Shown: in pieces, positions 24,085 to 28,617 of the stretch
Layout of the letters: each line of letters starts with the position of its first letter
How positions within the stretch are numbered: the stretch's first letter is position 1
Origin: a virus
DNA: 43,363 nt
Strand: one strand, 5' to 3'
IMG/VR virus record: IMGVR_UViG_3300037485_000597
Span: 1-43,363 of that record
Notes under the pieces: generated by a model
Database searches by the model: none
The model's input: only the letters and a program-made list of their open reading frames with translations
Told to the model about the DNA's origin: nothing
Program-made: the position numbers and the translations under genes

Positions 24085-24304
24085 TTATCACGTCAGCGAA
24101 TTACCAGAAGAAATCCTGGCCATCATCCGCATTAGCTGGTACAAAGATGGCAAGCCTGATGCAATTAACGAGGTCGTACTAATGGAAGACGGCCAAGATG
24201 GTTACGATGCCTTTGCGCAAGTGGTAACTGATGCGCTGCAACATGGCGCCAACTTAAGCATCCGCTCGGGCTATAGCGCAACAGACTTGGGCATCATGCA
24301 ATGA
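23984..24304 (+). CDS. Small hypothetical head-region protein
   Basis: 106 residues from ATG 23984, chosen because GGAGG lies nine bases upstream; a TTG/ATG start at 23942 lacks this. The N-terminal third ('WAYNLLERMTDWLVDLMIMI') is hydrophobic and could be a membrane helix; the rest has 'LPEEILAIIRISWYKDGKPD' and 'DAFAQVVTDALQHGANLSIR'. It lies between portal and head morphogenesis genes and overlaps both. No family recognised. Confidence 0.65.
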   Translation: MREWAYNLLERMTDWLVDLMIMIEPKRPRRQELDYHVSELPEEILAIIRISWYKDGKPDAINEVVLMEDGQDGYDAFAQVVTDALQHGANLSIRSGYSATDLGIMQ

Positions 24305-26328
24305 CAGTACCAGCCACCCTGTACCGCAACGCGATTGACCTTAATCGCTACAGCAATAGCGTGGCGCGGCGTGTTATCAATGCCTACAACGACATCATTA
24401 TTGATGCCACCAACCAACTGCGTACTATTGATGAGCTAGCTGCACCGGTTAAGGCTGCCAGGCTACGGGCAATCTTGGCGCAACTTAAGGATTCACTTGC
24501 AACATGGGCTGGTGATGCAACAGAGCTGACAGCAATCGAGTTGCAGGGCTTAGCTGAGCTGCAATCTGAGTTTGTTACCGAGCAACTATCGCGTGCATTA
24601 CCAGCTGGTGCGCGTACTGCAGTCAATACCGTTGAGATCAGCCCACAATTTGCGCAGTCAGTAGTAACGACTGATCCGACTCAGATCAATGTGGTTGCCT
24701 TGTCGGATGACTTATTTGCAGCAGTGCAGGGCGCACCGCAAACATTCAGCCTTACCGCTGCGCAGGGCGCCACCATCACGCTGCCCAATGGCGAGGTAAT
24801 CAGCAAAGCATTCCGTGGTATTGCTGTTGATCAGGCTGAGCGCTTTTCGCAGGTGGTGCGGCAGGGTTTGCTGACTGGCGAAACCACACCAGATATTGCC
24901 AAGCGGTTGATTGGCAGCTTGCAGTTTGGCGAGCAGGCCAAGACCGTTAAGCAGTTGGTAGCAGCAGGTGGCCAAGCCACTGCCGTGGCCGACAACCAAG
25001 TCATAGCCCTCGTTCGCACCAGCATTAACCAAGTGGCCAATACCGCCAGCCAACAGGTATACGAAGCCAATCAGGACATCACCAAAAAATACCGTTACAT
25101 CGCCACGCTTGACACACGCACCAGTGCTATCTGCCGCGCGCTAGATGGCCGTGAGTTTGAGTACGGCAAAGGGCCGATGCCACCGCAGCACTTCAACTGC
25201 TTACCTGGCGATGCGCTCATAACGCCCTGTGGCCGGATTGCGGCGGCTTACCGTCGGCGTTATAAGGGCTTTCTCTACGTCATCAAAACTGCCGATGGTC
25301 ACATAGTCAGAGTCACCCCAAATCATCCGATACTGACAAGTGCCGGCTGGCAGCCTGCTCAAAGCATCAATGTGGGTGATCAAGTTTTCAGCCGCTCGAT
25401 CATTCCAAACGAACTCGTTCATGATTGCCAAGAAGGCGATGCTGTAGCCACTGCTGAGGATGTATTTGGTGCGTTCAGGGAATCGAGCACGGTGTTCGCC
25501 GTGGAAGTGCCAACCACCGCCCCAGACTTCCACGGCGACGCTTGGAGTGGTGGCCCAAGGGTCAATCTTGCAAAGCAAGTCGCAGTTGTACTTGCCGATC
25601 GGGAACTGCTGCTCACAGTCAATCCCGGCTTGCTTAAGACTTTGCTGAATCGTGGATTCCAAAGGGCCAATCCTGCGGCAGCGAGCGGCGGCCATTTTGA
25701 CTTGGGCAGCCTCGCTATTAGGGCGGCCACGCTTGGCGGCATGAGCGGCAGCGGCCAACGCCTTGCGCTCGGCGGGGGTAGCGCGACCCATGCGAGCGAA
25801 TTGCTGCTCGCTTCTGTTCCTGAGCTTGCGCCCGGATTCCATGATGAGGCGCTCTATGGGACGTGGCGAAACATTGAATTGATCGGCAATGCCGCGAACT
25901 CCGATGCCGTCGTCATAGGCGGCAATGATCAAGTCGATGTCCTTTGGGTTGGGCGGGAACCATTTAGCGGCCATGTCTACAACTTTGAAACAGAGAGCGG
26001 CACCTACTGGGCCGATGGCATCCTAACCCATAACTGCCGTTCTACTACGGTGCCCATCATTGACTCGGACATCCTGCCGCCATCAACTACTGCAACCCGT
26101 GCCAGTCAAGATGGCCAGGTGCCTATCAATCAAAGTTACGGCGAGTGGCTATCTAAGCAGCCGCGTAGCGTACAAGCCGAAGCCTTAGGCACGGAGCGCG
26201 TTGCATACTTCAACCGCCTTGCCGACAAGTACGGCCCAAAGGATGCCATTGCAAAGCTAGTGCGTGACGATGGCTCAGAGGTAACCTTGGATCAGCTCCG
26301 CAAACGATATGGACCTGCCAAGCCTTAG
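24301..26328 (+). CDS. Mu F-like head morphogenesis protein containing an intein
   Basis: 675 residues before splicing, 396 after. Residues 1-299 and 579-675 are the host protein: a helical N-terminal half, 'DTRTSAICRALDGREFEYGK' and 'GPMPPQHFN', which is continued after the intein by 'CRSTTVPIIDSD'. Rejoined, PPQHFN-CRSTTVP is the hallmark motif of SPP1 gp7/Mu F minor head proteins. Residues 300-578 are the intein (separate entry). The protein helps build the procapsid near the portal and is coded after the portal as in most phages. Without splicing, the key motif is split, so activity should depend on the intein. Confidence 0.92.
   Translation: MTVPATLYRNAIDLNRYSNSVARRVINAYNDIIIDATNQLRTIDELAAPVKAARLRAILAQLKDSLATWAGDATELTAIELQGLAELQSEFVTEQLSRALPAGARTAVNTVEISPQFAQSVVTTDPTQINVVALSDDLFAAVQGAPQTFSLTAAQGATITLPNGEVISKAFRGIAVDQAERFSQVVRQGLLTGETTPDIAKRLIGSLQFGEQAKTVKQLVAAGGQATAVADNQVIALVRTSINQVANTASQQVYEANQDITKKYRYIATLDTRTSAICRALDGREFEYGKGPMPPQHFNCLPGDALITPCGRIAAAYRRRYKGFLYVIKTADGHIVRVTPNHPILTSAGWQPAQSINVGDQVFSRSIIPNELVHDCQEGDAVATAEDVFGAFRESSTVFAVEVPTTAPDFHGDAWSGGPRVNLAKQVAVVLADRELLLTVNPGLLKTLLNRGFQRANPAAASGGHFDLGSLAIRAATLGGMSGSGQRLALGGGSATHASELLLASVPELAPGFHDEALYGTWRNIELIGNAANSDAVVIGGNDQVDVLWVGREPFSGHVYNFETESGTYWADGILTHNCRSTTVPIIDSDILPPSTTATRASQDGQVPINQSYGEWLSKQPRSVQAEALGTERVAYFNRLADKYGPKDAIAKLVRDDGSEVTLDQLRKRYGPAKP
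25198..26034 (+). other. Intein, 279 residues, with antisense nuclease gene inside
   Basis: Begins at Cys1 (25198-25200, residue 300 of the precursor) and ends His-Asn (26032-26034), followed by Cys+1 of the extein. Block A is 'CLPGDALITPCGRIAA'. Block B is 'VRVTPNHPILT' with the T-x-x-H motif at intein residues 40-43. Blocks F and G are 'VYNFETESGTYWADGILTHN'. The stretch between (about residues 65-245) is low in complexity and shows no LAGLIDADG or HNH core in this frame. The usual His of block F is a Tyr, as in some phage inteins. Cys1, TxxH, HN and Cys+1 are all intact, so splicing should work. Confidence 0.93.
25201..25974 (-). CDS. Vsr/DUF559-like homing endonuclease antisense to the intein
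   Basis: 257 residues. An HTH at about 22-46 ('DGIGVRGIADQFNVSPRPIE') precedes an Ala/Arg-rich linker with 'AERKALAAAAHAAKRGR'. The nuclease core at about 105-185 has 'LESTIQQSLKQAGIDCEQQF', 'KYNCDLLC' (D132), 'VAVEVWGGGWHFHGE' (E149, H156, H158) and 'ERTKYILSSGYSIAFLA'. This is the Vsr-like/DUF559 PDDEXK layout of phage homing endonucleases. The gene lies wholly inside the intein: TAA at 25203-25201, ATG at 25974. Its codons sit in exact register with the sense codons. No clear Shine-Dalgarno sequence precedes it. Likely role: cutting intein-free alleles to spread the intein. Confidence 0.85.
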   Translation of the reverse strand: MAAKWFPPNPKDIDLIIAAYDDGIGVRGIADQFNVSPRPIERLIMESGRKLRNRSEQQFARMGRATPAERKALAAAAHAAKRGRPNSEAAQVKMAAARCRRIGPLESTIQQSLKQAGIDCEQQFPIGKYNCDLLCKIDPWATTPSVAVEVWGGGWHFHGEHRARFPERTKYILSSGYSIAFLAIMNEFVWNDRAAENLITHIDALSRLPAGTCQYRMIWGDSDYVTIGSFDDVEKALITPTVSRRNPATGRYERIAR

Positions 26329-27530: not shown

Positions 27531-27603
27531 TATATTTGCAACCGGCTGCGCTGGTGATCGGGCTGCGCCCACACCGTTAACATCAATCCCCTGAGGTTTC
27601 ATC

Positions 27604-28617
27604 ATGGCGACTCTTCGCTCTGATGTCATCATCCCCGAGATTTTCACGCCTTACGTCATTGAGCAAACCACCCTGCGTGATGCCTTCCTGGCATCCGGTG
27701 TGGTGCAGCCCATGGCTGAGCTGAACGCTACCGAGGGTGGTGACTACATCAACGTCCCCTTCTGGAAGGCCAACCTGTCCGGCGACTTTGAAGTGCTGTC
27801 TGACAGCACCTCGCTGACGCCTGGCAAAATCACCGCTGACAAGCAAGTCGGCGTGATCCTGCACCGTGGCCGCGCCTTTGAGGCTCGTGACCTGGCTGCC
27901 CTTGCCGCCGGCGCTGACCCCATGGCTGCCATCGGCGCCAAGGTTGCCTCGTATGTGGCCAACCAACGGCAGAAAGATCTGATCAAATGCCTCGAAGGCG
28001 TGTTTGGCGGTCTGACCTCCAACACCGGCGCTGCATTTGCTCCGCTGTCGTTTGACCTGAGCGGCATGACTGCCCTTGGCCCCCGTCAGGTGGCTAAGGC
28101 TCGTGCGCTGCTGGGTGACCAAGGCGACAAGCTGACTGCTGTTGCCATGCACTCTGCGGTCTACTACGACCTCGTCGAGCGCAAGGCCATTGACTACGTG
28201 ACCGCGACTGACGCTCGGTTCACTGCCGACAGCGCCATGCCCGACGCCTTTGGCGGCAGCATCGCTGGTGCTTACGGCGGCGACAACTCCGTGCCGACCT
28301 ACATGGGTCTGCGCGTGATCGTGTCTGACGACCTGGTGCCTACCAGCACCAACTACCCCGTCTATTTCTTCACCCAAGGCGCAATCGCCAGCGGTGAGCA
28401 AATGGCAATGCAGACCGAAACCGACCGTGACATCCTCGCCAAGAGCGATGCCATGTCCATCGACCTGCACTACTGCTACCACCCTGTGGGTGCTAAGTGG
28501 ACCGTTGGTACTACCAACCCCACTCAAGCGCAGCTTGCCACCATCGGCAACTGGACGAAGGTGTACGAAACCAAGAACCTGGGCATCGTACGTGGTACCG
28601 TAACTTCTAACTTCTGA
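27604..28617 (+). CDS. Major capsid protein
   Basis: 337 residues. 'EIFTPYVIEQTTLRDAFLAS', 'GVILHRGRAFEARDLAALAA', 'QKDLIKCLEGVFGG' and 'LTAVAMHSAVYYDLVERKAI' fit the HK97-fold coat proteins of siphophages (phage A118-type family). A good ribosome site (CTGAGG, seven bases before ATG) and strong codon bias to C-ending codons, as expected of the most abundant virion protein. It lies after the scaffold gene and before a decoration-type gene. No N-terminal delta domain. Confidence 0.92.
   Translation: MATLRSDVIIPEIFTPYVIEQTTLRDAFLASGVVQPMAELNATEGGDYINVPFWKANLSGDFEVLSDSTSLTPGKITADKQVGVILHRGRAFEARDLAALAAGADPMAAIGAKVASYVANQRQKDLIKCLEGVFGGLTSNTGAAFAPLSFDLSGMTALGPRQVAKARALLGDQGDKLTAVAMHSAVYYDLVERKAIDYVTATDARFTADSAMPDAFGGSIAGAYGGDNSVPTYMGLRVIVSDDLVPTSTNYPVYFFTQGAIASGEQMAMQTETDRDILAKSDAMSIDLHYCYHPVGAKWTVGTTNPTQAQLATIGNWTKVYETKNLGIVRGTVTSNF

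Follow-up and report, generated by a model that had tools for sequence, protein, structure and literature searches.

A probable mobile intein of phage MuF-like head genes with a predicted Vsr-like homing endonuclease gene nested on the opposite strand

Background

In mobile inteins that hold a homing endonuclease within them, for example PI-PkoII, PI-PfuI and the Thermococcales VMA inteins, the nuclease is a same-strand domain of the same polypeptide, inserted between blocks B and F of the two Hint halves; these inteins are distributed sporadically at highly conserved motifs of their host proteins. A second arrangement is that of the fractured genes, which Dassa et al. 2009 reportedly described and in which split inteins are said to flank a free-standing Vsr-like homing endonuclease gene. 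In this study, we report on a locus in the virus record IMGVR_UViG_3300037485_000597 (positions 1 to 43,363, analysed at this full length and referred to below as the window), in which a MuF-like minor head protein gene is interrupted by an intein and a predicted nuclease is coded on the opposite strand of that intein. The locus shares with PI-PkoII and its like the Hint halves, the place of insertion, the sporadic distribution and the conserved host motif, but here the nuclease has a gene of its own on the antisense strand, and the overlap extends over most of the intein, taking in block B and the beginning of block F. With the fractured genes it shares a Vsr-type nuclease tied to a phage or environmental intein, whereas here the intein is contiguous and the coding sequences overlap.

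Three further systems are comparable in part. I-Bth0305I (structure 3r3p; PMC3943268) has the same catalytic fold by profile and structure and likewise belongs to a phage mobile element, but it is encoded by a phage group I intron, has no protein overlap and a different DNA-binding part, and is about 15% identical. The ShiLan domain, an out-of-frame HNH nuclease in a phage DNA methylase (PMC11855218), is alike in placing a homing-like nuclease in a second frame of an open insert; it lies on the same strand in another frame, is of the HNH type and comes without a self-splicing domain. Antisense homing endonuclease genes of group I introns (I-DsqI, PMC9548176) are alike in their opposite-strand location and expression, but lie at the periphery of an RNA intron of eukaryotic rDNA, where no protein-protein coding overlap arises. 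The intein of the Guernseyvirinae has been mentioned in genome papers (PMC6776784, PMC8425127) without an antisense gene, and no description of an antisense-nested intein nuclease was found in the full-text searches, which covered open-access literature.

Methods

Loci were gathered mostly with nuclease queries, first in 50,697 phage records, which were searched by tblastn with the antisense protein, and subsequently in IMG/VR and GTDB with peptide patterns, which distant relatives may escape. The full alignment of 33 members was too diverse to serve as a search query, and sub-alignments were used instead. Codon usage of the nuclease was counted in a set of 74 genes dereplicated at 90%. Substitutions are reported as the ratio of third to first positions of the sense codon; in the exact register of the two frames, position 3 of a sense codon pairs with position 1 of a nuclease codon. 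Start signals were compared with synonymous shuffles, with the sequences counted as independent. Models were built with AlphaFold2, their confidence being given as the predicted local distance difference test (pLDDT) and the predicted template modelling score (pTM), and were compared with solved structures using VIA-align and Foldseek.

Results

The sense protein of the window matched Phage_Mu_F (PF04233, E=4.5e-11) and phrog_241 (E=7e-87) in profile searches. A first-pass annotation, made from the letters of the window, had recognised an intein in this protein by Cys1, a TxxH motif, a terminal Asn and Cys+1, and this was borne out by a match to TIGR01445 (intein_Nterm, 26.7 bits against a cut-off of 24.5) and by the splicing residues C1, T40, H43 and N279, which are invariant in 62/62 family members, with a Cys after each intein. 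TIGR01443 (intein C-term) scored 15.2, below its cut-off of 15.6, and Pfam Intein_splicing matched at E=1.7e-5, under the family cut-off. The features of the sense strand, with lengths in amino acids (aa), are as follows; in junctions, here and below, a slash marks the splice point.

24301..26328, + strand: MuF/SPP1 gp7-like minor head protein gene, 675 aa, interrupted in frame by the intein (PF04233, phrog_241)
24301-25197 and 26035-26325, + strand: exteins of the MuF head gene
25198..26034, + strand: intein, 279 aa, Cys1 to Asn279 and then Cys+1, in the conserved HxN/CR motif of the MuF domain
25198..25395, + strand: N-terminal half of the Hint domain, intein residues 1-66, pLDDT 87-97 per 10-residue block to residue 60
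25315-25326, + strand: intein block B, T40-P-N-H43
25525..25539, + strand: motif D110-F-H-G-D114, opposite nuclease residues 146-150 (V-A-V-E149-V)
25600..25917, + strand: middle of the intein, residues 135-240, a filler with predicted disorder and hardly any constraint at the protein level
25918..26034, + strand: C-terminal half of the Hint domain, intein residues 241-279 (blocks F and G; GHVYNFET...HN), pLDDT 88-96

The model of the sense protein contained confident Hint halves at both ends, with pLDDT below 50 at residues 134-240. Superposition on the Mtu RecA intein (2in8) gave a VIA-align Z of 13.2 over 107 residues at 1.4 A, and other Hint structures matched as well. The sense insert is accordingly best described from profiles and models as an intein with a predicted Hint fold, which would be expected to undergo protein splicing. 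In intein-free relatives the head gene is contiguous at the HPN/CRS junction.

The antisense frame lies in exact codon register with the intein, the two frames occupying 24301-26328 (sense) and 25201-25974 (antisense) just as first annotated, and encodes a protein with the following features.

25201..25974, - strand: nuclease gene, 257 aa, in exact codon register with the intein; AlphaFold2 pLDDT 91.5, pTM 0.74
25837..25950, - strand: predicted N-terminal helix-turn-helix (HTH) DNA-binding domain, nuclease residues 9-46 (PF02796, HTH_7)
25354..25674, - strand: Vsr/EDxHD-like nuclease core, residues 101-207, placed by VIA-align and residue conservation
25657-25659, 25579-25581 and 25528-25530, - strand: nuclease residues E106, D132 and E149, respectively
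25975..25990, - strand: translation-start region of the nuclease, opposite intein block F, with a weak Shine-Dalgarno match in the window

The nuclease ATG is the complement of the CAT codon of His259 in block F, 60 nucleotides (nt) from the intein end, as had been described; the stop TAA, which had been placed adjacent to intein Leu2, is in fact the complement of the Leu2 codon TTA itself.

The family profile of 71 nucleases matched I-Bth0305I (3r3p, E=2.6e-6) and 3hrl (E=1.6e-6). MTES_1575 (PF18741) was matched by 39/71 members at E<=0.01, the window nuclease itself scoring 22.7 bits, under the gathering threshold of 38.2. HTH_7 matched the window nuclease weakly, and was present in 37/71 members alongside other HTH families; the N-terminus matched by fold the HTH domains of Tc3, IstA and gamma-delta resolvase. 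The model built on the 71-member alignment had the high confidence given above, and in VIA-align ranked Vsr (1cw0) first, with Z 11.6 over 114 residues at 2.4 A, followed among nucleases by I-Bth0305I (Z 9.7) and 3hrl (Z 8.7); two mitoribosome chains also scored (Z 10.6 and 9.8). E106, Y129, D132 and E149 are invariant in 71/71 sequences, and E106, D132 and E149 are unchanged down to about 22% identity. D132 and E149 had been part of the active-site set first proposed, which did not list E106. Profile and fold searches run on both translations therefore found what had been suggested for each, a Hint domain in sense and an HTH with a Vsr/EDxHD-type core in antisense, and the antisense protein is on this modelling a predicted HTH and Vsr/EDxHD-like nuclease.

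Analysis of substitutions in the window and 18 close relatives revealed that the codon-position pattern is inverted inside the intein. The third/first ratio reached 2.38 in one extein and 1.82 in the other, fell to about 1.1 in the overlap of blocks A and B with the nuclease and to 0.48 in the intein middle (about 0.4-0.6 over residues 135-240), and rose to 3.19 over the last 20 codons of the intein, beyond the reach of the nuclease. The flip was repeated in the Guernseyvirinae (0.40), in Pseudomonas and enterobacterial prophages (0.72) and in the group L124-L137 (0.81), with exteins at 1.45-4.3. A broken antisense frame opposite a conserved sense middle was looked for in the homologues, and the opposite was seen, the antisense being conserved and the sense middle free.

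Codon usage indicated the reverse constraint. TTA, CTA and TCA in the nuclease place a stop in the intein frame, and exactly these codons are avoided: TTA and CTA make up 0/1,129 Leu codons and TCA 0/1,115 Ser codons in the 74 nucleases, ten of which have less than 42% GC. A recount in the window nuclease gave 14 Leu and 14 Ser codons with none of the three, in agreement with the first-pass annotation. If synonymous codons of the nuclease were chosen at random, intein residues 40-54 (block B), 85-96 and 110-115 would vary far more than they do; the DFHGD residues exceed the predicted uniformity with z of 13-27, while residues 141-240 are near expectation, which points to little sense-specific constraint there. 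Together, the substitution and codon patterns show that selection acts on both strands. The DFHGD motif, with EDxFxA upstream, is kept beyond the needs of the nuclease (family alignment A6), and we know of no standard intein block to which it corresponds.

The open antisense frame was rejected as evidence in itself, as a comparable chance open reading frame (ORF) lies opposite the major head gene of the window. This antisense ORF of 314 aa (27583-28527, - strand), in exact register with the major head gene (27604-28617), was used as a control; it is broken by 16-18 stops in two close relatives, its ratio of 1.93 is the normal sense pattern, and it is by these comparisons a chance ORF. Support for the nuclease gene rests on conservation because openness alone arises by chance.

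Start signals for the nuclease were found in many relatives within the C-terminal blocks of the intein. The His259 codon opposite the start was CAT in 54 and CAC in 3 sequences, against 136:157 for extein His (p=5e-15, the sequences not being independent). A Shine-Dalgarno match of at least 5 nt lay upstream in 26/61 sequences, where 4.0 would be expected and 200 synonymous shuffles gave 10 at most; it was strong in many relatives (GAGG or GGAGG), and is the complement of the N-L-E/Q codons in the block-F motif GHVYNLE. Sigma-70 promoters at or near consensus were identified in two clades, L082/L112/L115 and L126-L137, with the -10 box 32-34 nt ahead of the nuclease ATG in both, within the last 20 codons of the intein. 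Promoter scores of at least 11 were reached by 9/60 sequences against 0.76 expected (maximum 4 in 300 shuffles). These probabilities are too optimistic because of shared descent; the signals nonetheless recur in distant clades. A perfect consensus TTGACA-17/18-TATAAT is present in the reverse complement of the intein C-terminus of L112, L126, L132 and L136.

Comparison of alleles pointed to mobility. Escherichia virus fEg-Eco19 and Salmonella phage SE2 have contiguous, intein-free head genes that are 94% and 80% identical in protein, respectively, to the exteins of the intein-bearing LSPA1, so that the element is missing from otherwise contiguous alleles. Between L024 and L025 the exteins diverge at 34% and 41% of nucleotides but the intein at 4%, which on these distances is a recent transfer. 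Likewise, the window and L024 differ by 30% and 38% in the exteins, by 5% in the intein and by 7% in the 57-nt left flank, the low flank divergence being what co-conversion would give. In both pairs the element has moved horizontally apart from its host gene, and near-identical inteins in divergent head genes, together with intein-free alleles, indicate a mobile element.

The tblastn search yielded 90 records at E<=1e-5, of which 76 covered at least 80% of the query. The matches listed were to head genes or to genes lacking a name or annotation, and at every locus fetched the match was antisense to the head gene. Carriers include phages of Salmonella, Escherichia, Pantoea, Klebsiella, Vibrio and Gordonia, and also a Chloroflexota plasmid with phage genes. 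In the first set from IMG/VR and GTDB the opposite exact-register frame was open in 123/124 loci, the remaining two opposite frames nearly always containing from several to 43 stops. In total, 170 loci with a nuclease core of at least 120 aa were collected, with an in-register stop on the opposite strand in 0/170; Phage_Mu_F was found in 52/55 N-exteins tested. The arrangement is far more general than the first-pass annotation could show, and its universality is not a product of intein-directed searching, because the queries were nuclease sequences.

No free-standing relatives of the nuclease were found among the phage, plasmid and IMG/VR loci examined, although distant ones could escape the peptide-pattern searches. 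A Hint-only query over phages gave no nuclease-free mini-intein at the MuF site among the 60 matches listed; two-piece matches spanned about 845 nt, a nuclease-sized length, and the others were single pieces, mostly in phages or groups whose fetched member has the nuclease.

Several loci depart from the common form. In L155 and L156 (sense ORF of 1921 aa) there are two inteins per MuF gene, each with its own antisense nuclease, and the first lies at another insertion site and has an apparent N/S end instead of N/C. The phage fEg-Eco06 (L151) has the same design at a different site in the same head gene (TSTT/CFTA...KN/CRARDG); in this locus and in L016 (BEU35), which is built alike, the nuclease has two HTH matches. 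A scan with the fEg-Eco06 nuclease gave no match in IMG/VR, and a single scan of GTDB led to one Atlantibacter locus. The 775-aa sense gene of L146 may hold another insertion site, and in L023 the nuclease is fragmented, in an unverified record.

The window as a whole is from a tailed phage. Besides tape-measure and J-like tail genes it carries terminase, portal, scaffold and major head genes, and these four are near the MuF gene.

Discussion

The evidence supports an intein and a predicted Vsr-like nuclease coded on opposite strands of one DNA, both kept by selection. We consider it very probable that this is a mobile MuF intein whose homing endonuclease is a separate antisense gene nested in exact codon register. 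On the sense strand, the full frame would be translated with the head gene, the two Hint halves would pair across the long unstructured linker, and the intein would excise itself, restoring the head protein. On the antisense strand, a separate transcript would be translated from the ATG opposite His259 of block F to give the HTH and Vsr/EDxHD-like nuclease, whose target would be the conserved HxNC codons of intein-free head genes or a site close to them; repair of the cut gene from the intein-bearing copy would then spread the element. Avoidance of TTA, CTA and TCA follows from both strands being coding, and loss of one product would tend to harm the other because the nuclease start signals lie in the essential C-terminal blocks of the intein. 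As a member of an existing fold family, the nuclease probably has the older frame in the middle of the element, with the sense linker overprinted, and it may have invaded the intein backwards without splitting it. With its own antisense start it could be made independently of the head-gene transcript, which would suit homing between co-infecting genomes.

Several observations weigh against this interpretation. A sigma-70 promoter scan of the nuclease upstream region found none in the window, and its Shine-Dalgarno match is weak. The two histidines of the active-site set first proposed are not conserved, H156 being present in 48/71 nucleases and H158 in 17/71; the HD end of EDxHD may include H156, the H and D positions of the family being mapped without certainty. 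Foldseek with the nuclease model returned nothing below E 0.001, so the Vsr assignment depends on the profile hits and VIA-align. One internal stop in the nuclease, with the sense frame open, is present in L103, L109 (= L143) and L110 (= L144), and both frames are broken in L070; these copies look decayed or affected by sequencing errors. Finally, dual coding could partly lower the divergence of the intein, although 0.04 against 0.34 is hard to explain in this way.

Vsr-like folds serve in repair and restriction too, and with its cleavage target a prediction the nuclease could be real and antisense-nested without being a homing enzyme, serving the phage in another role such as competitor exclusion or degradation of host DNA, with the intein as a shelter. 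We hold this to be unlikely, as the nuclease was free-standing in 0/170 loci, near-identical inteins occur in divergent genes while intein-free alleles are common, and a homing endonuclease, I-Bth0305I, is among the closest solved relatives. Slightly less probable again is an intein that was once mobile and whose nuclease is now inactive in most lineages, being kept solely because its strand could not be lost without harm to the intein. The nuclease stops in L103 and L109/L110 with the sense intact, and the weak start signals of the window itself, would fit such a state, but E106, D132 and E149 stay invariant to about 22% identity, the middle, to which the intein is indifferent, is under nuclease-only selection, and recent transfers are observed.

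Doubt could also be directed at either product. That the insert no longer works as an intein, the head gene being disrupted or the insert kept unspliced, is very improbable: its middle is disordered and unconstrained and its splicing is deduced from sequence, yet C1, T40, H43 and N279 are kept in 62/62 members, the Hint halves are modelled at high confidence, and the three-codon avoidance holds the sense frame open in 74/74 nucleases. The least credible alternative, which the data already contradict and to which we give almost no weight, is that the antisense ORF is a by-product of sense coding or composition and no gene. Long exact-register antisense ORFs do arise by chance, as the 314-aa example on the major head gene illustrates; that ORF, however, carries 16-18 stops in two close relatives and has a ratio of 1.93, whereas at the intein locus the codon-position pattern is inverted, the product is predicted to fold (pLDDT 91.5) and matches Vsr-type nucleases, and the start signals exceed the needs of the sense frame.

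Conclusions

A mobile intein with an antisense-nested nuclease would be a new architecture for mobile inteins. We regard it as likely, with less assurance than for the locus itself, that an ancient class of such inteins exists, with the homing enzyme in exact register on the reverse strand and with its active site, start codon, ribosome-binding site and, in some clades at least, promoter in the reverse complement of essential splicing sequence. If this is true, few antisense protein-protein overlaps known in phages would be as widespread and as tightly interlocked, and the interlocking would shield the nuclease from the decay that is usual after fixation. It is rare for a large natural set of antisense overlaps to offer two products whose folds can be recognised and whose chemistry is known, and this one makes testable the origin and maintenance of an overlapping gene pair, as well as the question whether homing nucleases, which are usually lost after fixation, are lost more slowly when the overlap is mutual. 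Additionally, phage annotation misses functional antisense genes, the nuclease being unlabelled as such in all records read, and a homing nuclease inside a structural gene can have start signals of its own, which would permit its expression apart from the head-gene transcript.

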